Shown here piece by piece: positions 19,014 through 30,528 of a DNA stretch of 64,000 nucleotides (its first letter is position 1; every line of letters begins with the position of its first letter). The DNA lies in the NCBI GenBank assembly GCA_016124335.1, contig WGNX01000004.1, forward strand, positions 394,418 to 458,417, read 5' to 3'. This DNA comes from Alphaproteobacteria bacterium. GTDB taxonomy: Bacteria; Pseudomonadota; Alphaproteobacteria; CACIAM-22H2. The translations under genes were made by a program, and so were the position numbers. The notes below the pieces were generated by a model that was not told where the DNA came from, made no database searches, and saw nothing but the letters and a program-made list of their open reading frames with translations.

Positions 19014-19272
19014 CCCGACCGGCCCCGAAAGATCGAACCAGTCATTCCCGGCAAGAGCGGGTTCGAGGAGCGAAAGCGAACGCAGGACACATCTCCGGGT
19101 TGAATACGACCCGGATGTACCATCTTCGTTCTAAAAGGACAATGTTCTTATTATTGTGTATTCAGCCGGCTGTGACCCGCTTCTACCCCTTTCGATAGCA
19201 CAGTATATTAAATGCCTGTTTAGGACGTTGCCTCATTCCTTTTTGTTGCCGTTTTATTGTTCGGGAGGTCGC

Positions 19273-20313
19273 GTGAAGACAGCATTCGCCGGGCTTGCAA
19301 TCGGGGCATTGGCATTGGGCGCTTGCGTGCCCGATGAAGCGGGGTCCGGGCCCGCGACGGGCGGCGCCCCGGCATCGCGATCCAGCTCGGTCTTCGAGTT
19401 CGAATCGCCCCACTACCCCAACGAAGGCCAAGCCGTCGTCGCCGGATTTCTGAAAAACGAGCCGTCCTCGACCGTCCGCATCACCGGCCAATTGCTGCTC
19501 CCGCCCGGCGCAAAAGCCCCGGTGCCAATGGTGATCGTGGCGCACACCTCGGCCGGTCCGAAGGCGGATGTTCCGATCGTGGCATCGGCAATGCGCGCGG
19601 CCGGCTTCGCGACCCTGACCTATCACAGTTTCGCCCCGCGCAAATTCGGCAACAACGGCGATGCCTCCCAGTCGGGCGGCGGGCCCCGGCTTGAAATGCA
19701 CCTGGCAACCGATGCCTATCTCGCCCTCAAGGCGCTCGCCGCGGATCAAAGGATCGATATCAAACGCGTGGCCATCGTCGGGCTCTCGGCCGGCGGCAAC
19801 GGCGCCATGCTCGCTTCAAGCGAGTCGATGCGAAAAAGATATGTCGGTGCCGATGGCCCGCGATTTGCGGCCCTTGTCGCGATCTATCCCGGCGGCTACC
19901 TGCTGCCGCTCGACAAGGATGTTTCTTCGCAAACGCCGCTGCTGCTCCTGCCGGCCGAGAATGACACGCTTATGCCGTGGAAGCGCACGAAAGTCTGGGT
20001 CGATCACGTGCTCAAGGACGATCCCTCGAAGCCGGTGAGCTACAAGGTCGTTCCGGGCGCGCATCACTCGTTTCTCAATGACGGCGTCAGGGCTCCGCCA
20101 AACGTGCCGGGGGCCGGAACCTGCCCTTATACGGTCGTGGAACTGGAAGGCCCCAGCGCCGCCTATCTGCACGTCAACGGCGCGGTCAACCAGTTCCCCG
20201 ACATGGGGTGCCAGACCCGCGGCGCGACAATGGAGTACTCGGCTTCGGCAAGCTCGTTTGCCATCAACGAGACCGTCGCCTTCCTGAAGAAGCGCTTCGC
20301 CGAGATCGACTGA
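19273..20313 (+). CDS. Alpha/beta hydrolase lipoprotein (dienelactone hydrolase-like)
   Basis: 346 aa. GTG 19273 follows GGGAGG and starts a lipoprotein signal (MKTAFAGLAIGALALGAC). The fold is clear: RITGQLLLPPGAKAPVPMVIVAH, oxyanion region HTSAGPK, nucleophile elbow GLSAGGNG (Ser), LLPAENDTLMPW (Asp region) and PGAHHSF (His), so the catalytic triad is complete. The likely role is hydrolysis of an ester at the periplasmic face of a membrane. It is followed by the convergent gamma-glutamylcyclotransferase gene, 4 bp away. Confidence 0.88.
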   Translation: MKTAFAGLAIGALALGACVPDEAGSGPATGGAPASRSSSVFEFESPHYPNEGQAVVAGFLKNEPSSTVRITGQLLLPPGAKAPVPMVIVAHTSAGPKADVPIVASAMRAAGFATLTYHSFAPRKFGNNGDASQSGGGPRLEMHLATDAYLALKALAADQRIDIKRVAIVGLSAGGNGAMLASSESMRKRYVGADGPRFAALVAIYPGGYLLPLDKDVSSQTPLLLLPAENDTLMPWKRTKVWVDHVLKDDPSKPVSYKVVPGAHHSFLNDGVRAPPNVPGAGTCPYTVVELEGPSAAYLHVNGAVNQFPDMGCQTRGATMEYSASASSFAINETVAFLKKRFAEID

Positions 20314-20317
20314 CGGC

Positions 20318-20737
20318 TCAGCGCGGCGCGAACGTCTGGTTGGCGAGCGTGGCGAGGAAAGCGCGCTTGTGGCGCCTTGCCCAATCCTCGTAGCGCCAGA
20401 TCGCGGGCGTGGGTTGCAGCGTGCCGCTGCCGTCGTCGACATAGAGGAAGGCCTCGACGGATTTCGCACCGACGCGTACCGGCACGGCGATGCGCCGGTA
20501 CCCGGGGCCTTCATATTCGTCGAGCTTGCGGCCCGCTTCGGCCGAAAGGCCGCGCGCGAGCACGCCGTCGATCTCCGCTTTCGGATCGGGGCGCGCGATG
20601 GGGAACGTGACGCCTTTGGCCGAAAAGCGCCGCCAGCCCGCGAGCATTGCGGGCTCGACACGCGCAGGCGCAAGTTTGCCCAGCACGGCCCGGCGCACGT
20701 CCGGGTCGATCAGCGTGCCATAGAAAAAGAAGCGCAT
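20318..20737 (-). CDS. Gamma-glutamylcyclotransferase family protein
   Basis: 139 aa, AIG2/GGCT-like. It starts FFYGTLIDPDVRRAVLG, the YGTL substrate loop, and has RKLDEYEGPGYRRIAVPV with the family catalytic Glu. Members release 5-oxoproline from gamma-glutamyl amines, though many bacterial ones are uncharacterised. Its ATG overlaps the upstream phosphohexomutase stop by one base (TGATG), so it is co-translated with the nucleotide-sugar genes. The biological link is unclear. Confidence 0.88.
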   Translation of the reverse strand: MRFFFYGTLIDPDVRRAVLGKLAPARVEPAMLAGWRRFSAKGVTFPIARPDPKAEIDGVLARGLSAEAGRKLDEYEGPGYRRIAVPVRVGAKSVEAFLYVDDGSGTLQPTPAIWRYEDWARRHKRAFLATLANQTFAPR

Positions 20738-22137
20738 CAGTGGCCGGCGGCCGCGTCTTCGGGCAGCGCGATGCCCGACTTTTCAAGCTGGCCTTCGAGA
20801 TCGGCGCGCAGGCGCGCAAGCCCCGCCTCGCCCTTCGCCTCGCAGCGCGCGACGAGCACGTCCTGCGTGTTCGAGGCGCGCAACAGCCACCAGCCGTCGG
20901 ATGTGTTGACGCGCACGCCATCGATGGTGCTGAACGTGGCGCCTGCGGCCTTGAGGCGCGCGGCCACCTCCTCGACCACGGCACGCTTGCGCGTCTCATC
21001 ACACGGGAAGCGCAGCTCCGGCGTGTTGAGGACCGTGGGCATCGCGTCGCGGAAATCGGCAAGCGTCTTCGTGCCGGTCGCCAGGATCTTCAGCAGGCGC
21101 AGGCCGGCATACATCGCGTCGTCGAAGCCGTACCAGCCGTCCGCAAAGAAGATGTGGCCCGACATCTCGCCCGCCAGCGGGGCCACCGTCTCGACCATCT
21201 TGGTCTTGATGATCGAATGGCCGGTCTTCCACATCAGCGGCTTGCCGCCCATGCGCGCGATCTCGTCGAACAGCACCTGGCTTGCCTTCACATCGGCGAT
21301 GATGGTCGAGCCCGGCAGCCGCGCGAGGATTTCGGAAGCCAGCACGGCTATCAGCTGGTCGCCCCACAGGATGCGGGCCTTGCCGTCGATCACGCCGATG
21401 CGATCGCCGTCGCCGTCGAACGCGATCCCCAGATCGGCCTTCTCGCGCAGGACCGCGTCCTGCAACTGGACGAGGTTCCTGGCGACCGTCGGGTCGGGAT
21501 GGTGGGCCGGGAACGTGCCGTCGATCTTTTCGTTGAGCAGGATGTGGCGGCCCGGCAGGCGCTTGCTCACGGCGACGAGCGCCTCGCCCATCGACCCGTT
21601 GCCCGCATCCCACACGACCGTGAGGTTCTTGGCGTCCTTCGGATAGTCGCGCAGCAGGCGGTCGATATAGGCGGCCTTCACGTCGAGATCGGCGGCACTG
21701 CCCTTGCCCTCGGCAACCCGGCCCTCGCCCACGCGCTTGCCCATCGCCTGGATGTCGGCCCCCCAGAACGACGCCTTGGCGAGCATCATCTTGAAGCCGT
21801 TATAGTCCGGCGGGTTGTGCGAGCCGGTGATCATCACGCCGCCGTCGAGATGGTTCTCGCGCACGGCGAAATAGAGCTGCGGCGTGGGGCCAAGCCCCGT
21901 GCGCAGCACTTCAAGCCCGCAATCGGAAAGACCGGCAACGACCTTCGCGGCCAGTGCGGGCGAGGAAAGCCGCCCGTCCCAGCCCACGGCAACACGCTTT
22001 CCGCCCTTGTCGACGAGGGCCGAGCCGAAGCCGCGGCCGAGCGCGTAGGCGTCGGCCTCGTTCACCGTCTTGCCGACGATGCCGCGAACGTCATATTCGC
22101 GGAGGATCGTCGGATCGAAGGCGTGGCGGAAGCTCAT
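20737..22137 (-). CDS. Phosphomannomutase/phosphoglucomutase
   Basis: 466-aa alpha-D-phosphohexomutase of the AlgC/ManB type that interconverts hexose 6- and 1-phosphates for nucleotide-sugar synthesis. Domain 1 has the phosphoserine loop TGSHNPPDYNG (Ser106), domain 2 the Mg site DGDGDR (241-246), domain 3 GEMSGHIFF with the sugar-binding Glu-x-Ser-x-His, and domain 4 the phosphate loop VRVNTSDGWWLLRASNT. The start ATG overlaps the ugd stop by 4 bp (ATGA). With galU and ugd it supplies UDP-glucose, UDP-glucuronate or mannose-1-P. Confidence 0.94.
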   Translation of the reverse strand: MSFRHAFDPTILREYDVRGIVGKTVNEADAYALGRGFGSALVDKGGKRVAVGWDGRLSSPALAAKVVAGLSDCGLEVLRTGLGPTPQLYFAVRENHLDGGVMITGSHNPPDYNGFKMMLAKASFWGADIQAMGKRVGEGRVAEGKGSAADLDVKAAYIDRLLRDYPKDAKNLTVVWDAGNGSMGEALVAVSKRLPGRHILLNEKIDGTFPAHHPDPTVARNLVQLQDAVLREKADLGIAFDGDGDRIGVIDGKARILWGDQLIAVLASEILARLPGSTIIADVKASQVLFDEIARMGGKPLMWKTGHSIIKTKMVETVAPLAGEMSGHIFFADGWYGFDDAMYAGLRLLKILATGTKTLADFRDAMPTVLNTPELRFPCDETRKRAVVEEVAARLKAAGATFSTIDGVRVNTSDGWWLLRASNTQDVLVARCEAKGEAGLARLRADLEGQLEKSGIALPEDAAAGH

Positions 22138-23468
22138 TCGCCCGCACCCGAGCCCTTGGCGGTGTTCGGCCGGCCGATCGAATGGTAGTCGAACCCGGCC
22201 GCCGCCATGTCGGCAGGCGAATAGACGTTGCGCAGGTCGACGACCAGCGGCGACTTCAGGAGCTTCCGGACGCGGTCGAGCTGGAGCGAGCGGAACTGGT
22301 TCCACTCGGTGATGATGACCAGCGCGTCGGCACCGTCCATCGTGGCATAGGCATCGTCGACCATCTCGACGCCCGGCAGCATCTGGCGGGCCTCGTGCAT
22401 CCCTTCGGGATCGTAGGCCACGACCTTGGCGCCCGCCTGCTGGAGGGCCGGGACGATGTCGAGCGAGGGGCTGTCGCGCATGTCGTCGGTATTCGGCTTG
22501 AACGTGAGGCCGAGCACGGCGATCTTCTTGCCCTTGACCGAGCCGCCGCACGCGGCGATCACCTTCTCGGCCATCTTCTTCTTGCGCCGGGTGTTGATGT
22601 CGACGACCGTTTCGATGATGCGCAGCGGCGCGCCGTAATCCTGCGCGGTCTTGACCAGCGCCAGCGTGTCCTTGGGGAAGCACGAGCCGCCGTAGCCGGG
22701 GCCCGGATGCAGGAACTTCTTGCCGATGCGCCCGTCAAGCCCGATGCCCTTGGCGACGTCGTGCACGTCGGCACCCACCTTCTCGCACAGGTCGGCGACC
22801 TCGTTGATGAAGGTGATCTTGGCGGCAAGGAACGTGTTGGCCGCGTACTTGATCAGCTCCGATGTTTCCAGCGACGTGAACACGATCGGCGTCTCGATCA
22901 GGTAGAGCGGGCGGTAGAGCTGGCGCATCACTTCGCGCGCGCGCTCGCTCTCGGTGCCGATGACCACGCGGTCGGGGCGCATGAAGTCGCTGATCGCCGC
23001 ACCCTCGCGCAGGAATTCGGGATTGGAGGCGACGTCGAACTCGGCGTCCGGGCGCACCTTGCGGATGCGGCGTTCCACCTCGCGGCCCGTCCCCACCGGC
23101 ACGGTCGACTTGGTGACGACGACGGCATAGCCCGTCAGCGCGCGGCCGATCTCCTCGGCCGCCGCGTAGACATAGGAAAGGTCGGCGTGCCCGTCGCCGC
23201 GGCGCGAGGGCGTGCCCACCGCGATGAAGACCGCATCGGCCCCCGGCACGGCTTCGGCAAGGTTGGTCGAGAAGCTGAGCCGCCCGGCCTTGACGTTCGT
23301 CTCGACGAGCTTGTCGAGGCCCGGCTCGAAGATCGGGATGCCGCCGGCCTTGAGCCTGGCGATCTTGGCTTCGTCCTTGTCGACGCACACGACGTCGACG
23401 CCGAATTCGGAGAAGCAGGCGCCGGTCACCAGGCCCACATAGCCCGTGCCGACCATGACGATACGCAT
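22134..23468 (-). CDS. ugd: UDP-glucose 6-dehydrogenase
   Basis: Oxidises UDP-glucose to UDP-glucuronate with two NAD+. 444 aa. N-terminal Rossmann motif MRIVMVGTGYVGLVTGACFSE, then STVPVGTGREVE, EFLREGAAISDF, and the catalytic Cys263 in GYGGSCFPKD; the C-terminal NAD-like domain has FKPNTDDMRDSPSLDI. It lies 187 bp downstream of galU and overlaps the phosphohexomutase gene, giving a coherent route from hexose phosphate to UDP-glucuronate. Confidence 0.95.
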   Translation of the reverse strand: MRIVMVGTGYVGLVTGACFSEFGVDVVCVDKDEAKIARLKAGGIPIFEPGLDKLVETNVKAGRLSFSTNLAEAVPGADAVFIAVGTPSRRGDGHADLSYVYAAAEEIGRALTGYAVVVTKSTVPVGTGREVERRIRKVRPDAEFDVASNPEFLREGAAISDFMRPDRVVIGTESERAREVMRQLYRPLYLIETPIVFTSLETSELIKYAANTFLAAKITFINEVADLCEKVGADVHDVAKGIGLDGRIGKKFLHPGPGYGGSCFPKDTLALVKTAQDYGAPLRIIETVVDINTRRKKKMAEKVIAACGGSVKGKKIAVLGLTFKPNTDDMRDSPSLDIVPALQQAGAKVVAYDPEGMHEARQMLPGVEMVDDAYATMDGADALVIITEWNQFRSLQLDRVRKLLKSPLVVDLRNVYSPADMAAAGFDYHSIGRPNTAKGSGAGE

Positions 23469-23655
23469 CGTTCAAATCCTCGCGACAAACCTGGTCCGTG
23501 GCCCCGCACAACGCCGGGACCCTTGCGCCAATTCCGTCAAGGAATCCAGACGCGTGGGGTGCGTAGCAAGCCGCCGCCCGGAAGTCGAGAGCGGGCGCGG
23601 TCGCAGACCTAACTAATTGGCAAATATGGCAGAATTTGGCCGTCGGACCCTGCCC

Positions 23656-24525
23656 TCAGGCGTATCGCTTCACCACGGACTTGGCGGCGGCCCCCAGATC
23701 GGCGCGGTCGAGCGCAAAGGCGATCTGCGCTTCGAAGAAGCCGATCTTGTCGCCGCAGTCGAAACGCTGGCCCTCGAAACGGAAGCCGTGGAACGGGCTG
23801 GTGCCGATCATCGGGATCAGCGAGTCCGTCAGCTGGATCTCGCCGCCCGCCCCCTTGGTCTTGCGGTCGAGGAAGCCGAACACCTGCGGCTCGAGGATGT
23901 AGCGGCCGATGACCGCAAGCGTGGACGGCGCCGCCTCGGGCTTCGGTTTCTCGACGAGGCTCTTCACCTGCACGAGCCTGCCGTCGTCGCGGCCCGGCGA
24001 CAGGATGCCGTAGCGCGAGGTGTGTTCCTTGGCCACGTCCATCACCGCGACCATGTTGCCGCGGATTTCGGGATAGATGTCGCACATCTGCTTCAGGCAC
24101 GGCGTCTTGGCAAGGATCAGGTCGTCGGCAAGAAGCACGGCGAAGGGCTCGTCGCCGACGAGGTTGCGCGCGCACCACACCGCATGGCCCAGCCCCAGCG
24201 GCACCTGCTGGCGCGTATAGGCGACGTCGCCGGCCGGCGGCAGCCAGGCGCGCAGCGCCTCCAGTTCCGCCTTCTTGCCGCGGGCCTCCAGCGTCTGCTC
24301 GAGTTCGTAGGAGTGGTCGAAATGGTCTTCGATCGTCGTCTTGCCGCGGCCGGTGACGAAGATGAATTCCTCGATGCCCGCCGCGCGCGCCTCCTCGACC
24401 GCATACTGGATCAGCGGCTTGTCGACGACCGGCAGCATCTCCTTGGGCATCGCCTTGGTGGCGGGAAGGAAACGGGTGCCGAGGCCGCCGACGGGGAAAA
24501 TGGCCTTGCGTACGCGTGGCTTCAT
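23656..24525 (-). CDS. galU: UTP--glucose-1-phosphate uridylyltransferase
   Basis: Makes UDP-glucose from glucose-1-P and UTP. 289 aa from ATG 24525 (MKPRVRKAIFPVGGLGTRFLP), where the pyrophosphorylase loop GGLGTRFLPATKAMPKEMLP sits right at the N-terminus. Other signatures: KPLIQYAVEEA, GLGHAVWCAR, LLADDLI, VEKPKPEAAPS, GGEIQLTDSL. It lies 105 bp after the GT41 fusion gene and upstream of ugd on the same strand. Confidence 0.96.
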   Translation of the reverse strand: MKPRVRKAIFPVGGLGTRFLPATKAMPKEMLPVVDKPLIQYAVEEARAAGIEEFIFVTGRGKTTIEDHFDHSYELEQTLEARGKKAELEALRAWLPPAGDVAYTRQQVPLGLGHAVWCARNLVGDEPFAVLLADDLILAKTPCLKQMCDIYPEIRGNMVAVMDVAKEHTSRYGILSPGRDDGRLVQVKSLVEKPKPEAAPSTLAVIGRYILEPQVFGFLDRKTKGAGGEIQLTDSLIPMIGTSPFHGFRFEGQRFDCGDKIGFFEAQIAFALDRADLGAAAKSVVKRYA

Positions 24526-24630
24526 GGCGCGAAAATCCGATCGGGTGGAAATTGCCGTCCGCGACAACGCGCGGACATGCCGGGTCATGCCACAGCCGGC
24601 GAACCAATACAATAATCGCAAGTCAGCGGT

Positions 24631-27114
24631 TCAGCCGACGCGACGGCGCACGATGTCGGCAAACGCTTCCGCCATCCGGATCGCATCGACGCGCGATTTC
24701 GCGCGCAGCCGGCGCGGTTCGTCGCGGCGAAGCGCGATGCGTTCGTCGACCGCGCCGGCCAGCCGGACCGCCTCGGCGACGAATGTCTCGTCGCTGTCAT
24801 GGGCGATGCCGGGGCGCCCGGTCGCTTGCGCAAGCCAGCGGCCGATCCGGCCGAGGCTCGTATTGCCGACCCGGCTCAACACGGGCAGGCCCAGATGCAC
24901 CGCCTCGAACATCGTCATGCCGCCGGCAACAGGCAAGGTGCCAAGCACGATGTCGATTTCGCGGTAGCCGACAAGATAGTTCGGCCAACCGAAATGGTGC
25001 CGAAGCAGGATACGTTCGCGGCCGATGCTTTCTTCCGCCGCCATCCGCCAGATCCGCTCGCGGAACAGCGGCTCGCCGGCAAGGTTGTTGCCCAGATAAA
25101 GGCGCGATCCGGGCACCGCTCGCAGCACCTTTGCCCACAGCGCAAAACATTCGCGGCTGATCTTGTACGGATTGGACAACGAGCCGAACGTGACGTGGCC
25201 GCTATGCTCTTCCGGACACAGGCCGGGCCACGGAAGCGGCGAACGAGGCGACGCCCATACCTCCGGCTCGTAAACGTAGATATCCCCGGGTGTGGCTTCG
25301 ATGCGGCCGGGAAACGCCCGTGCCATCGCGTCGGGGTAGATCGGTGCCGGCCCGACCGCGAAGTCGTAGCAGGGGTCTTCCGACGGCCCGGTCATGTTGA
25401 ACCAAGTCGCCTGCATGTGGCCCGGCCGGAGAACGAAGCTGCCTGGCGTATGCGGCAGAAGGGATTCATCCATGTCAATCAACAGATCGTACGGCTCGGC
25501 GGCAAGCGCTTCGGCGGTGCGCCGCCAGGCGGCCGGATTGCCAAGCGTCGTGGCGTCCATCGTGGCAAGCCGGTTGATGCCGATCTCGCGCGGAAGCACG
25601 GCACGGGCCATCGCAACGTCGGCGTCCGTGAGCGAAATGAGGTCCACCGAGAAATCGGCGCCGGCCAGCTCGCGCAGAAGCGGAACGGCGAGCGAAAGGT
25701 AGTTGCGCGAACCGACCGTGGCGCTCGCGAAGCCGACCCTCGCGCGCGCGCCTCGCGGGCCGAGCGCCAGCGCAGGACCCGCGATTTCAGGAACGGCGCG
25801 CAGGCGCGCGAGACGCTCCGCCTTCGCCGCCGCGACATCCAAGTCGGCGGTGGCAGGATCGTAAAGGCGCATCGCGGCCAACGTCGTCTCGATGGCCGGC
25901 GGAAGCGCCCGAAGCGCATGCGCACGTTCGAGGTGCGAGCGTGCAGCCGGCACGTCGCCGATCGTTGAATGGGCATTTGCGATTTGCAGGTGTGCGCCGG
26001 CGACCGCCGCCGGATCTACGGCCCGCGCGCAGATGTGCTCGAACGTGCCGATCGCCTGGCGATCGGGCAGCGAATACCCGGCTTTCATCAGCAGGCGCGC
26101 AAGCTCCGCATCGTCGGGCCTTCGCTCGATCAACCGAAGGAAGATCTCCCGGTTCGCGCTTTGCGAATTCGCAGGCACGTCCGCCAGCGCCAGAACGAGC
26201 GCATCGCGCGTCGCGATATCCGCCGGGCGTTCAGCCAGCGCCTCGCAAATTCGCCTCAACTGCCCCGGTGGGGCGGAGATATTCCATAAACAGTATTGAA
26301 TAATAAAAGAAGTCACCACATCGCGCGCATCGACGAGAAGGCTGTGGCCGGCTTCCGGAAACCGGCGGAAGACGAGATCCGGCGGGTCGAGCGCAAGCAA
26401 TCGGGCCTCGTCTTTCGCGTCGATCAAGCTGGAGCGCGCTTCCGGCGAACGTCCCGATGCATCGTCGCCCGCCAGCACGGCGATCGACGCGGCGCGCGCC
26501 GCCTTCCCGAGCAGCGCCCAATGACCGTCGCCATGGACGGAATTCACGAAGTCGGAATCCTCGACGTAGCTGAAGACGAAGGGCGGCGTCTCGACCGGGT
26601 TGACATAATTGAGAAGGTGTTGCTGCACGCCGCGCAGCGCGCGCTGCGATATCGGCGGATCGAGCATCACGATCGCGCGCGTTCGCTGCCGGAGGACGCC
26701 AACCGCCGCGGCCATGGCGACGATTGCGCCCATCGATTGCCCGAGGAAAATGATATCGCGCGAAGGAGCGGCCGCCTCGACGATGTCGATGACGTGTCGG
26801 GCATAAAGTTCTGCCTGGGGCGGTTCGTGCGATTTTGACCGGGAATTGCCATATTCCGGCATATCAACGAGCAGAAGGTCGAAATGCTCGGTCAACGCGC
26901 GTGCGATGGCGCGCAGGTCCTTGGTGCTGCACAGCGCGCCCGGCAGACCGACGATCAGCGGGCGGTCGCGACCCGCCTTGCCGGTAAAAAGTTCACCTCC
27001 CGTTATTCGCGTTTCCGTTTCTGCAACGATCGCACGGACCCATGCCCGGCCGAACGGAGAAGGCTGGGATTGTGGCTTGAGATGAACCAGTTCTGAGGAT
27101 GTGCTCGACATCAA
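24631..27114 (-). CDS. Alpha/beta hydrolase - helical repeat - GT41-like glycosyltransferase fusion
   Basis: 827 aa with three parts. Residues about 50-275: alpha/beta hydrolase with LIVGLPGALCS, nucleophile elbow GQSMGA (Ser127) and EAGHSLL (His257); an acid is available. About 285-440: helical TPR-like repeats (AVAGAHLQIANAHSTIGDVPAARSHLERAHAL split over two helices). About 455-825: the C-terminal half of O-GlcNAc transferase/SPINDLY type GT41 (FVLRPGHMQATWFNMTG, VTFGSLSNPYKISRECFALW, DIVLGTLPVAGGMTMFEAVHLGLPVL). The two His residues important in human OGT have no obvious counterpart. No signal peptide, so cytoplasmic. It heads the galU-ugd-phosphohexomutase block, so it may use a UDP-sugar made there. 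Confidence 0.85.
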   Translation of the reverse strand: MMSSTSSELVHLKPQSQPSPFGRAWVRAIVAETETRITGGELFTGKAGRDRPLIVGLPGALCSTKDLRAIARALTEHFDLLLVDMPEYGNSRSKSHEPPQAELYARHVIDIVEAAAPSRDIIFLGQSMGAIVAMAAAVGVLRQRTRAIVMLDPPISQRALRGVQQHLLNYVNPVETPPFVFSYVEDSDFVNSVHGDGHWALLGKAARAASIAVLAGDDASGRSPEARSSLIDAKDEARLLALDPPDLVFRRFPEAGHSLLVDARDVVTSFIIQYCLWNISAPPGQLRRICEALAERPADIATRDALVLALADVPANSQSANREIFLRLIERRPDDAELARLLMKAGYSLPDRQAIGTFEHICARAVDPAAVAGAHLQIANAHSTIGDVPAARSHLERAHALRALPPAIETTLAAMRLYDPATADLDVAAAKAERLARLRAVPEIAGPALALGPRGARARVGFASATVGSRNYLSLAVPLLRELAGADFSVDLISLTDADVAMARAVLPREIGINRLATMDATTLGNPAAWRRTAEALAAEPYDLLIDMDESLLPHTPGSFVLRPGHMQATWFNMTGPSEDPCYDFAVGPAPIYPDAMARAFPGRIEATPGDIYVYEPEVWASPRSPLPWPGLCPEEHSGHVTFGSLSNPYKISRECFALWAKVLRAVPGSRLYLGNNLAGEPLFRERIWRMAAEESIGRERILLRHHFGWPNYLVGYREIDIVLGTLPVAGGMTMFEAVHLGLPVLSRVGNTSLGRIGRWLAQATGRPGIAHDSDETFVAEAVRLAGAVDERIALRRDEPRRLRAKSRVDAIRMAEAFADIVRRRVG

Positions 27115-27226: not shown

Positions 27227-27793
27227 TCAGGCGCCCGGCGTGTCGCGCACCCAGGCCGAGCCGCGCTGGTAGAGCGCGCGGAACGCGAAGCCGACGATCC
27301 GCCAGCCCTGCGGGGTGCGGACAAGCTCGTGCACGTACTGGCCCCAGACTTCCCACAGGTCGCCGTCCGGCCCGCCGGGCTTGCGGTTCCACGCATAGCC
27401 GTTCGAGCGCAGCGTCGCGCTTTCGCCCGCGATGTCGACGAGCGTCTCGCCGCGGATATGCAGGCTCGTCTTGTCGCCCCGGAGATTGCCCGCCCAGCTC
27501 GCGACCAGCGCGTCCGCCGGGACCGTGGTCGGCTCGCCGCCGGCAAGCGTGGAGAAGTCGACGCGCGCCATTTCCGCGAACCACGCCCGCGCGGCCGGCC
27601 AATCCCGCGCATCGACGGCCATATCCACGAGCGCCACGATCCGGCGTAGCGCCAGCTCGTCGGAAATCGCCTGCGAAGCGTCGGGCATCTGGGCCTGCGC
27701 CTGGGACGAACCGATCGCAAACGCGCCTCCCGCCGCCGCCAGCAGGCCGCGCCGCGCGATGTCCGCGCCGTGTCCGGAATTTCCGTCGGTCAT
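27227..27793 (-). CDS. SnoaL/NTF2-like protein with Tat-type signal
   Basis: 188 aa. ARRGLLAAAGGAFAIGSSQAQAQ near residue 13 is a twin-arginine-like export signal. The rest is a small alpha+beta cone: ALRRIVALVDMAVDARDWPAARAWFAEMARVDF, then SLHIRGETLVDI and the C-terminal GWRIVGFAFRALYQRG, as in SnoaL-like polyketide cyclases and bacterial NTF2-like proteins. Probably periplasmic. Ligand or reaction unknown. It stands alone between the GT41 fusion gene and the J-domain gene, both on the same strand. Confidence 0.82.
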   Translation of the reverse strand: MTDGNSGHGADIARRGLLAAAGGAFAIGSSQAQAQMPDASQAISDELALRRIVALVDMAVDARDWPAARAWFAEMARVDFSTLAGGEPTTVPADALVASWAGNLRGDKTSLHIRGETLVDIAGESATLRSNGYAWNRKPGGPDGDLWEVWGQYVHELVRTPQGWRIVGFAFRALYQRGSAWVRDTPGA

Positions 27794-28269: not shown

Positions 28270-28302
28270 GCCCCTAGAGATAGGGTCTAAAGCGTGCGGG
28301 CG

Positions 28303-29217
28303 CTAGGGCGACACGTTCGCGTCGGCCGGAAGCGAGGTCGGCACGGCGGCCGGAGCCGGCGCTTCGCGCAGGCCGATGGCGTCGAGAAGGGCGCGCACTT
28401 CCTGACGGCCGGCGATATGGCTCATCGTCAGCGGCGTCTGGATGCCGCGTTCGCGCAGGTCGAGCAGCGTGAGGCCCATCAGGAACAGTTCGCGGAACAC
28501 CACGCGGTCGCCAAGCCCTGCCGCCTGACGGAAGCCGAAGCGGCGCGAAAGCGCGTCGAGCGCCTGGGTCATGTTGCGCTTGTTTCGCGCGTCGACCGCG
28601 GCAAGCCGGTTGCGCACCACGATCCAGTCAATCGACTGGCCATCCCGTTTCGCGCGGATCTTGCGCTGTTCCCAGACCATCGCGCTGTAGGCCGACGGAC
28701 AGATGATGCGCAGGCTCACCGGCTCGACCTTCGCGATCAGGTCGAGATCGACGAAACTGTCGTTCATCGGCGTGACCAGCGTGTCGGCCCAGGAATGCGC
28801 CACGCGGCTCAGCGTCTGGTCGGAGCCGGGCGTATCGATGACGATTGCCTCGCACAACGGCGAAAGCTCGGCGATGGCGGCTTCCAGTCGCGCCGTCTCG
28901 TCGGCGATCGCGGCCTCGCCCAGCGACTTGGCGCGCGGCACCAGCCGGTGATCGGGCATGGGCAGCGGCAGCTTCAGCTTTTCCATCGTCTGCGCGCGGT
29001 TTTCCAGATAGCGCGTCAGCGTCGCCTGGCGGGAGTCGACGTCGATCGTGCCGACCCGTACGCCTTCGCGCAGCAGGCCCACGACCAGATGCATGGCCAC
29101 CGTCGACTTGCCGGAGCCGCCCTTCTCGTTGCCGAGCACGATCACGCGCGCGCGGCGGCGCGGCGGCGGCGTCGATTCGCCAAGAAATTCCGGCAGGGAG
29201 CCCGAATCGGCTGTCAT
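28303..29217 (-). CDS. mipZ: Division-plane positioning ATPase MipZ
   Basis: ParA/MinD-superfamily ATPase that in Caulobacter and relatives forms gradients from ParB at the poles and keeps FtsZ at midcell. 304 aa. A Pro/Arg-rich lead is followed by the deviant Walker A VIVLGNEKGGSGKSTVAMHL (Lys37), DVDSRQATLTRYLENR (switch I, typical of MipZ rather than ParA), VIDTPGSDQ (Walker B) and a C-terminal region RDQ/GLRE-type helices. It is divergent from the pentapeptide-repeat gene with 48 bp between. Confidence 0.93.
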   Translation of the reverse strand: MTADSGSLPEFLGESTPPPRRRARVIVLGNEKGGSGKSTVAMHLVVGLLREGVRVGTIDVDSRQATLTRYLENRAQTMEKLKLPLPMPDHRLVPRAKSLGEAAIADETARLEAAIAELSPLCEAIVIDTPGSDQTLSRVAHSWADTLVTPMNDSFVDLDLIAKVEPVSLRIICPSAYSAMVWEQRKIRAKRDGQSIDWIVVRNRLAAVDARNKRNMTQALDALSRRFGFRQAAGLGDRVVFRELFLMGLTLLDLRERGIQTPLTMSHIAGRQEVRALLDAIGLREAPAPAAVPTSLPADANVSP

Positions 29218-29265
29218 GGCGCTAGTCTACCGCGTTCGGGGGGGGTTAATCTGCCCCTTGCATCC

Positions 29266-30528
29266 ATGAGCGACAGCAACAATCCCGGCGGCGCGGCCGC
29301 TTCGAACAACGCCATGCGGCTCAAATGGCTCGCCGACCGCCACAGCGCGTTCCTGTTCGGGCGCCCGGGCGGCCAGCGCGCCGATTCGCGCCGCCAGAAC
29401 TACAAAGGCGCGGTCCTCGAAGGCGGAAATCTTTCGTCCGCGATCCTGTCCGGCTGCAATTTTGCCGAAGCCAAGCTGCTCGACTGCGACTTCTCGATGG
29501 CCGACCTGTTCGCGGCGGATTTCTCGGGCTGCGACCTGTCGCGCTCGACCTTCCGCAAGGCCGACCTGCGCGCGGCAAGCTTCATCCACGCCAAGCTGCG
29601 CGGCTGCGACCTTTCGGGCAGCGACCTCCGGCCGGGCCAGATCGTCGACTGGACGAGCCTTTCGAGCGAGACGAAGGAAGTCACGGCATCGTTCGAATCG
29701 GCGGATCTCGAGAACGCCAGCATGGGCGCTTCCGACCTGTCCTTCGCGAATTTCGAGAATGCCTCGATGAAGGGGGCGCAGCTTGCCGGCGCCACGCTGT
29801 TCGCGGCCAACCTGCGCGGCGCCGACCTGATCGGCGCCAAGTTCGATGGCGCCAAGCTCAAGGGCGCGCAGCTTGCGGGCGCCAAGCTCAACGGCGCCTC
29901 GTTCCGCAACGCCGATCTTTCCGGCGTCGACCTGCGCGGGGTCGAACTCAATAACGTGCAGATGGGCGGCGCACGGCTCGAAGGCACGATCTACGCAAAC
30001 CCGCCGCCCGGCGCGAAGCTGCCGCAGGACCTGAAGCCCATCGTCGAAGCGCACCGCCGCTGGGCCGATACCGGCGGGCGCGAAGGCACGCGCGCCGATT
30101 TCGGCGGCCGCGACCTCACCGGAACGGATTTTGGCGGCTGCGATCTTTCGGGCGCGCGCTTCGACGGCGCGATCCTGTCGCGCGCGCGCTTCGTGGCGGC
30201 CTCGCTGCGGCTGGCGAGCATGCTGTCGGTCCGCGCCGAGCGCGGCGACTTCTCCGACGCCGATCTTTCCGGCGCCACGCTGCTGGGCGCGCGGCTGGAA
30301 GGAACGCAGCTCGTCGGCGTGATCGCGCGGCCGATGGAAATGCGCGCGTCCGACGGCGCGCTGACCGGGCGCATCACCGTCACGAATTTCGCCAACGCCT
30401 CGCTTGTCGGCGCCGACCTGCGCGCGGCCGACCTGCGCAGCGCGAATTTCGCGGGTGCCGACCTGCGCGGTGCCAACCTGGCGGGCGCCTTCCTGGCGAA
30501 CGCCGACATGACCGGGGCGCGCCGCTAG
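29266..30528 (+). CDS. Pentapeptide-repeat protein
   Basis: 420 aa made largely of A(D/N)LxX repeats that fold as a right-handed quadrilateral beta helix. Block 1 covers about residues 50-235 (e.g. FSGCDLSRSTFRKADLRAAS), interrupted near residue 127 by PGQIVDWTSLSSETKEVTASF; a non-repeat bridge (about 240-275) precedes block 2 (about 280-420). The N-terminus MSDSNNPGGAAASNN is disordered, then RLKWLADRHSAFLFGRPGGQRA. No signal peptide, so cytoplasmic. Such helices can mimic DNA or act as scaffolds; no role is known here. It shares a divergent promoter region with mipZ. Confidence 0.9.
   Translation: MSDSNNPGGAAASNNAMRLKWLADRHSAFLFGRPGGQRADSRRQNYKGAVLEGGNLSSAILSGCNFAEAKLLDCDFSMADLFAADFSGCDLSRSTFRKADLRAASFIHAKLRGCDLSGSDLRPGQIVDWTSLSSETKEVTASFESADLENASMGASDLSFANFENASMKGAQLAGATLFAANLRGADLIGAKFDGAKLKGAQLAGAKLNGASFRNADLSGVDLRGVELNNVQMGGARLEGTIYANPPPGAKLPQDLKPIVEAHRRWADTGGREGTRADFGGRDLTGTDFGGCDLSGARFDGAILSRARFVAASLRLASMLSVRAERGDFSDADLSGATLLGARLEGTQLVGVIARPMEMRASDGALTGRITVTNFANASLVGADLRAADLRSANFAGADLRGANLAGAFLANADMTGARR

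Follow-up and report, generated by a model that had tools for sequence, protein, structure and literature searches.

The stretch of DNA analysed here (hereafter the window) comprises 64,000 nucleotides of an Alphaproteobacteria bacterium (assembly GCA_016124335.1, contig WGNX01000004.1, positions 394,418-458,417 of the forward strand). On its minus strand lies a gene (24631..27111) whose product joins an alpha/beta hydrolase, a set of tetratricopeptide repeat (TPR)-like helices and a GT41-fold glycosyltransferase, as judged from the open reading frame (ORF), Pfam, phmmer, an AlphaFold model, Foldseek and homologues. The usual build of a GT41 protein is TPR plus transferase. An earlier note, made from the sequence alone, had placed this fusion gene at the head of five minus-strand genes, followed by galU, ugd, a phosphohexomutase gene and a gamma-glutamylcyclotransferase gene, and all five were found in that order. 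The fusion had been given a length of 827 residues; the ORF holds, but translation from its first ATG, at position 27111 and preceded by a TTG at 27114, yields 826 amino acids. Because of this start, the previously named Ser127 and His257, both of which are present, become Ser126 and His256.

The AlphaFold model of the whole protein was built on a 7-sequence alignment (mean predicted local distance difference test (pLDDT) 72.3, predicted TM-score (pTM) 0.64) and shows nine helices between an alpha/beta domain and a second alpha/beta region at the C-terminus. The hydrolase domain occupies approximately residues 23-275 (26287..27045, minus strand), as placed by Pfam, the model and solved folds in the PDB. 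It is followed by the TPR-like helices at approximately residues 284-438 (25798..26262) and by the GT41-fold domain at approximately residues 456-826 (24634..25746), the latter delimited by alignment with SPINDLY and XcOGT and by Foldseek. Thus the hydrolase and GT41 parts of the architecture proposed earlier are borne out, while the TPR part is present in the model only and is not significant in Pfam. No signal peptide was evident by eye at the N-terminus.

The ratio of nonsynonymous to synonymous substitution rates (dN/dS) was calculated for six close pairs of homologues other than the window protein, taken from within each of the two locus types (A and B) described below. The hydrolase gave values of 0.09-0.19 and the helical part 0.09-0.18; those of the glycosyltransferase, 0.04-0.17, were similar to or below the hydrolase values in every pair. 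All parts are therefore kept by selection, and a spurious or chance ORF is ruled out by the homologues and these ratios. The fusion is genuine and recurrent within one genus. A search of the open-access literature, within the wording used, found no description of a hydrolase-GT41 fusion, in agreement with the earlier note, to which no description of GT41 with an esterase-like domain in front was known.

Catalytic positions of the two domains

The hydrolase domain scores above the Pfam cut-off for Abhydrolase_6 (33.4 bits versus 26.3; 9.8e-8) and also matches Abhydrolase_1 (1.3e-6), whereas phmmer against PDB sequences gave only weak matches for the front part (RsbQ 8e-4, FphE 9e-4). Folded alone, the domain reached a pLDDT of 80.1 and a pTM of 0.85. 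The nearest solved folds of this model are esterases and related hydrolases, such as human valacyclovir hydrolase (TM 0.71/0.73). In the model, Ser126 of the G-x-S-x-G motif (GQSMG) follows strand 5, Asp151 (LDPP, the Asp-Pro pair) comes directly after strand 6, and His256 (AGH) lies after strand 8. These residues and Glu235 are identical in all 12 domains of the alignment, which comprises nine GT41 fusions and three sulfotransferase fusions. We prefer Asp151 as the likely catalytic acid, with Glu235 as the alternative, because the usual site just after strand 7 is not conserved; other alpha/beta hydrolases with an acid after strand 6 exist. The domain is thus predicted to be a serine-esterase-type alpha/beta hydrolase with an intact-looking Ser-Asp-His triad. 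An RhlA-like acyltransferase identity was considered and rejected: it was suggested by one PDB match (E 0.008) that was no better than the other hydrolases listed.

The C-terminal half is more divergent. The Pfam GT41 family (PF13844) scores 22.1 bits in the window fusion (5.3e-5), just below its cut-off of 25; three homologous fusions that were scanned one by one exceed that cut-off (L013 34.3, L023 30.7 and L022 26.8). By phmmer against PDB sequences, the same region matched XcOGT (4.3e-17), SPINDLY (4.8e-17) and TtOGT (1.4e-16). Foldseek returned 1834 matches to the AlphaFold model at E<=10, of which the best 50 were all OGT or SPINDLY entries, with TM by query length of only 0.37-0.51; the best E-value per structure for TtOGT, SPINDLY and XcOGT ranged from 4e-22 to 4e-19. 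From sequence and model, this half is best described as a divergent member of the GT41 fold, of the SPINDLY or bacterial OGT type.

Equivalents of SPINDLY Lys665, Tyr744 and Thr748 were taken from the phmmer alignment of SPINDLY with the window protein. The catalytic columns of the glycosyltransferase alignment, which has no SPINDLY row, were read by eye, the histidine column being located through the phmmer alignment with XcOGT and the His-Ser pair named in the SPINDLY study (PMC9715652). Lys650, corresponding to the phosphate-binding lysine, SPINDLY Lys665 (human OGT (hOGT) Lys842), is invariant in the eight aligned fusions and is also present in the ninth (L027), and the GG-x-T loop is kept. 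The position of the active-site histidine, SPINDLY His495 (hOGT His558), is taken by Arg469 in the window protein; it is Arg in eight fusions and Glu in L013. Asp491 is replaced by Thr465 in the window protein and is changed in the fusions, and Tyr744 is replaced by Val728 (Val in 9/9 fusions). Met732 stands at the position of Thr748, the window protein being the sole one of the nine with Met.

A tree was calculated for 44 glycosyltransferase domains: the nine fusions, four relatives that lack the hydrolase, seven paralogues from the window's own genome and 24 others. A starred clade (100/98) unites eight of the fusions, and fusions and hydrolase-less relatives together form a starred clade of 13 rows (100/100), which widens to a starred 16-row clade (96/97) on inclusion of L044, L045 and L053. 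Within this subclade, histidine at the SPINDLY His495 position occurs in none of the 16 rows, in comparison to 27 of the remaining 28 (the exception, L008, sits on a very long branch). By family code within the class, the 16 rows belong to f1, f82 and f128. The divergent fusion L013 groups with the hydrolase-less proteins, but its placement is unsupported (89/55), so that there may have been one fusion event or two.

Distribution of the fusion and of its hydrolase domain

The family search set consisted of 23 genomes, equal to the whole order in the collection, 11 of which belong to the window's genus. A first scan of the genome collection with the window protein alone gave no match. Eight further fusion genes were found in five of the ten other genomes of the genus, one of them truncated and one divergent: two each in G016 (one cut by a contig end), G018 and G019, and one in G020, at 42-44% identity to the window protein, together with the divergent L013 in G015 (31%). 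The search aligned L013 only from residue 297, whereas blastp aligns it over its full length; its hydrolase scores weakly in Pfam (Hydrolase_4, 0.0056, below cut-off) and was missed by the hydrolase-domain search. In the 12 family genomes outside the genus the fusion was not found. Relatives without the hydrolase are present in G011, G015 and G017, and Pfam shows no hydrolase in those of G017-C13 and G015.

Wider searches with a fusion profile covered 385 genomes of the class and 398 of the phylum; the two best candidates per genome were scored, such that fusions on other GT41 genes could escape. At a threshold of 1e-45, 25 class genomes matched, with the hydrolase covered in G000 (completeness 74.6%) and G016 only; the remaining 23 matches start at profile position 271 or later. 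Seven phylum genomes matched, with the hydrolase covered in G000 only. A Pfam scan of the 44 GT41-type proteins gave nine matches to Hydrolase_4, as many as there are fusions among them; the 25 families listed, of 55, include no further hydrolase family. In the samples searched, the fusion is restricted to one genus.

The 751-aa frame of L015/L029 opens with a stretch that looks non-coding. One hydrolase-less relative (L030:9620-11245, minus strand) stands in tandem with a canonical TPR-GT41 gene (L030:7749-9623, minus strand), between dapB and an endonuclease III-like gene; these surroundings are partly similar in G011 and G017.

No phage match was found, nor did viral contigs match six exact peptide patterns, and 76 plasmid records match at less than 60% identity, none over more than 80% of the query; a phage or plasmid origin was therefore rejected. 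The GC content at third codon positions (GC3) of the fusion is 0.756, against a median of 0.8465 for the 46 called window genes of at least 150 aa, a set that comes from a crude caller and includes spurious ORFs. At least six window genes have a GC3 below that of the fusion, and the 112 bp between the fusion and the SnoaL-like gene upstream of it have a GC content of 43%. Composition is thus weak evidence for a foreign origin.

When the window hydrolase domain was searched against the 23 family genomes (E<=1e-8), it recovered the GT41 fusions with the exception of L013, and also, in each of G016, G018 and G019, an additional gene at 30-32% identity. These three genes (L068:2551-4329, minus; L069:1169-3052, minus; L070:4541-6457, plus) encode alpha/beta hydrolase-sulfotransferase fusions. 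In L068, the one scanned, Sulfotransfer_1 scores 1.8e-7 and the fusion also scores to Pfam Thioesterase (1e-9); the next gene is an adenosine phosphosulfate (APS) kinase (2.6e-33), while L069 and L070 have a 179-aa gene in the same place. The reverse search from a sulfotransferase-fused hydrolase (E<=1e-6) recovered all three of these genes together with five GT41 fusions, namely that of the window and four of type A, and did not reach type B. No stand-alone hydrolase was found in either direction in this set. Within the family and at the thresholds used, the two kinds of front domain match nothing but one another, at about 30% identity.

Genomic surroundings

Flanks were obtained for seven other fusion loci, L025 and L026 being seen in part, and fall into two types: A (L021, L022, L025 and L027) and B (L023, L024 and L026). 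The fusion L027/L018 ends at a contig end, and the L013 contig (3.1 kb) is too short to be assigned a type. In type A, a TylF-type O-methyltransferase gene ends tail to tail against the fusion (Pfam TylF was tested for L027 and L032 only), and in L013 a partial TylF relative (65%) lies just upstream on the same strand. A TylF-type gene hence adjoins the fusion in five of the eight other fusion loci, in two arrangements; as the type A gene is at least 97% identical in three loci, the five cases are not independent. Other neighbours recognised by Pfam at the fusion loci are an amidase, an M81 peptidase and an ABC binding protein, as well as YjeF and malonyl-CoA decarboxylase. Pentapeptide-repeat-like genes, recognised by eye, lie within a few kb of the window fusion (28294-30528, plus strand, start probably later) and of one type B fusion (L023:2362-3606 and L023:7141-8469); blastp gives 41% and 29%, which may reflect the repeats alone.

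The TylF relative of the window genome (69%) lies on contig C14. There (L032 and L033), four of the window genome's seven GT41 paralogue places are accompanied by genes for flagellin, FlaF, FlbT, FlgK, FliK, FliF and FlhA and by a dTDP-sugar epimerase gene, a cluster that is likely to represent a flagellin glycosylation island. It also holds TPR-methyltransferase and rhamnosyl-methyltransferase-like genes. Flagellin_N matches number 5-13 per genome in all 11 genomes of the genus, on several contigs and including some fragments.

Downstream of the window fusion, all on the minus strand, are a galU-type nucleotidyltransferase gene (23656..24525, PF00483, likely start 24525), ugd of the UDP-glucose 6-dehydrogenase type (22134..23468, PF03721/PF00984/PF03720), the phosphoglucomutase/phosphomannomutase gene pgmG (20737..22137, NF046027 at 721.8 bits, NCBIfam cut-off 600) and a gene of the AIG2-like gamma-glutamylcyclotransferase type (GGACT; 20318..20737, PF06094). 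A SnoaL-like gene (27227..27793, minus strand, PF13577) is next upstream of the fusion. A second alpha/beta hydrolase, of the Pfam dienelactone-hydrolase family (19156-20313, plus strand), stands tail to tail with the GGACT gene. The ugd stop and mutase start overlap (ATGA, mutase start 22137), as do the mutase stop and GGACT gene (TGATG), by 1-4 bases, whereas a gap of approximately 105 bp lies between the end of the fusion gene and the likely start of galU. A scan for promoters and terminators gave three terminator-like sites, against 2.9 expected, and one promoter-like site, on the plus strand, against 0.4 expected.

The earlier note had regarded the fusion as part of a nucleotide-sugar block whose products would supply a UDP-sugar donor. 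A survey of homologues upheld the recurrence of the fusion, but not the conservation of these neighbours with it. Across the 23 family genomes galU was found in 17, ugd in 19 and the mutase in 19. The three genes are consecutive on one contig in 15 of the 17 galU genomes and split over contigs in G002 and G007. Among the 15 genomes with the block whole, the fusion adjoins it in the window only. In G016 and G019, one fusion each lies on the galU contig at a distance of about 76 kb, with the remaining fusions on other contigs. All seven other fusions whose surroundings are visible lie away from the block. The block is hence family-wide without the fusion, and a UDP-sugar donor is not inferable from the neighbourhood. 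The galU, ugd and mutase genes look like housekeeping bystanders, conserved neighbours that lie outside the fusion system.

The flanks of galU were inspected in five relatives (L071 to L075). L074, from G014, has the order GGACT-mutase-ugd-galU-SnoaL, which is that of the window minus the fusion. Other genes precede galU in L071, L072, L073 and L075. A GGACT homologue adjoins the mutase in L072, L074 and L075, and none was called there in L071. The fusion was probably inserted between galU and the SnoaL-like gene, which would make the UDP-sugar genes bystanders. This insertion reading rests on one genome, because only L074 of the five relatives has the galU-SnoaL junction.

Proposed function and known relatives

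We tentatively favour a role for the fusion as a cytoplasmic protein glycosyltransferase, similar to FlmG and SPINDLY, with a built-in esterase, which probably became inserted next to galU among unconnected UDP-sugar genes. The TPR-like helices would hold a protein substrate, the GT41-fold part would glycosylate a protein made in the cytoplasm, most likely flagellin, and the hydrolase would free either the sugar or the acceptor of an acyl or methyl ester. The insertion, both activities, the protein nature of the substrate, flagellin as its identity and the order of steps are all inferred. Flagellin is the leading candidate because the genus carries many flagellins and other GT41 genes of the window genome lie in a flagellar cluster. 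The link between C14 and the TylF-type gene, the only lead to a target, is indirect. It is possible that, as suggested earlier, sugar addition and acyl removal occur on the same target.

Several observations weigh against this account. The TPRs are modelled only (Pfam TPR_14 at E 0.25 is not significant), and a target shared by hydrolase and transferase is a supposition. On the contigs that carry fusions, no flagellin match lies closer to the fusion than about 50 kb, other flagellar genes beside fusions not having been systematically searched for, and a TylF-type gene was not found beside the fusion in type B loci or in the window. With no equivalent of His495, Val in place of Tyr744 and, in the window copy, Met in place of Thr748, the transferase may have another chemistry or no activity. 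Indeed, it is conceivable, if unlikely, that the GT domain is no longer a working transferase and serves as a binding module for the hydrolase. This would account for the histidine missing in 16 of 16 rows and for the altered Asp491, Tyr744 and (in the window) Thr748 equivalents. However, the transferase domain has a dN/dS about as low as that of the hydrolase or lower, and has retained Lys650 and the GG-x-T loop. In SPINDLY, a GT41 protein O-fucosyltransferase that uses GDP-fucose as donor, Lys665 is reported to be essential and Tyr744 and Thr748 to matter, while His495Ala and His495Phe are dead, which the authors ascribe to structure (PMC9715652). The same work argues that the base is the donor phosphate and not a residue (PMC9715652), which also speaks against a merely binding domain. 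The histidine-less subclade represents a natural replacement at this position and bears on the need for a protein base in GT41.

A stronger, though still rather unlikely, alternative is that the fusion tailors a small molecule or lipid, whereby the hydrolase releases or deacylates the acceptor in the manner of a thioesterase or esterase and the transferase caps it, the sulfotransferase twin capping with sulfate. The exclusive pairing of the window hydrolase domain with GT41 and three sulfotransferase fusions in the family genomes, at the thresholds used, is consistent with this, as are the Thioesterase score and the adjacent APS kinase of L068. On the other hand, the GT41-fold members studied act on proteins, the TPR-like helices are kept, and the Pfam-tested neighbours form no obvious biosynthetic cluster. 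The two hydrolase groups, moreover, share only about 30% identity, and type B was unreached by the reverse search. It is disfavoured and highly improbable that galU, ugd and the mutase gene form a dedicated operon with the fusion and supply it with UDP-glucose or UDP-glucuronate: the genes adjoin on the same strand and their products would be UDP-sugars, but the block occurs without the fusion in the 14 other genomes that have it whole, the seven other fusions with known surroundings lie elsewhere, and the gap before galU differs from the overlaps further downstream. Least probable of all is glycosylation of a cytoplasmic or envelope protein other than flagellin. GT41 enzymes elsewhere act on varied proteins and no flagellin lies near a fusion, yet no tested neighbour points to another target.

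If the favoured role as protein glycosyltransferase with built-in esterase is correct, the fusion would link glycosylation to the removal of an ester through an esterase-type domain placed before GT41, its triad being conserved across several species and in two paralogous types of locus. One of the closest parallels, by description rather than by sequence, is FlmG of Caulobacter crescentus, a TPR plus GT-B protein that glycosylates flagellins (PMC7591256). Like the fusion, it is alphaproteobacterial and modular; it is cytoplasmic, with an N-terminal substrate-binding TPR part and a C-terminal GT-B part, as is predicted for the fusion. It differs in its donor, pseudaminic acid, and no hydrolase domain is reported for it. 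SPINDLY shares with the fusion the GT41 fold (Foldseek E ~1e-21), the equivalent of Lys665 and a preceding TPR region, which in the fusion is modelled only, but lacks the hydrolase in front and retains the His495, Asp491 and Tyr744 that are Arg469, Thr465 and Val728 in the window protein. XcOGT and TtOGT (2jlb, 5djs) have the same fold and are among the best PDB matches, but are without the hydrolase, and XcOGT has His at the position of Arg469. GT41 joined to another tailoring enzyme is described for enterobacterial flagellin glycosylation islands, where the partner, unlike here, is a methyltransferase domain and the genes lie inside flagellar islands (PMC4875605).

The sulfotransferase fusions leave room for a broader 'hydrolyse, then cap' group, an idea we regard as doubtful. 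In such a group, the hydrolase subtype with its acid after strand 6 would be a shared front module, joined to GT41 in some proteins and in others, next to an APS kinase gene, to a sulfotransferase. A single protein would then both cleave an ester and cap the group so released with sugar or sulfate; the GT41 version, in the histidine-less subclade, might have a new donor and chemistry. Curacin-type synthases contain a sulfotransferase-thioesterase pair with the thioesterase acid on strand 6, within polyketide synthases and unrelated to GT41. That pair resembles L068-L070 in joining an alpha/beta hydrolase to a sulfotransferase, but in the reverse order.

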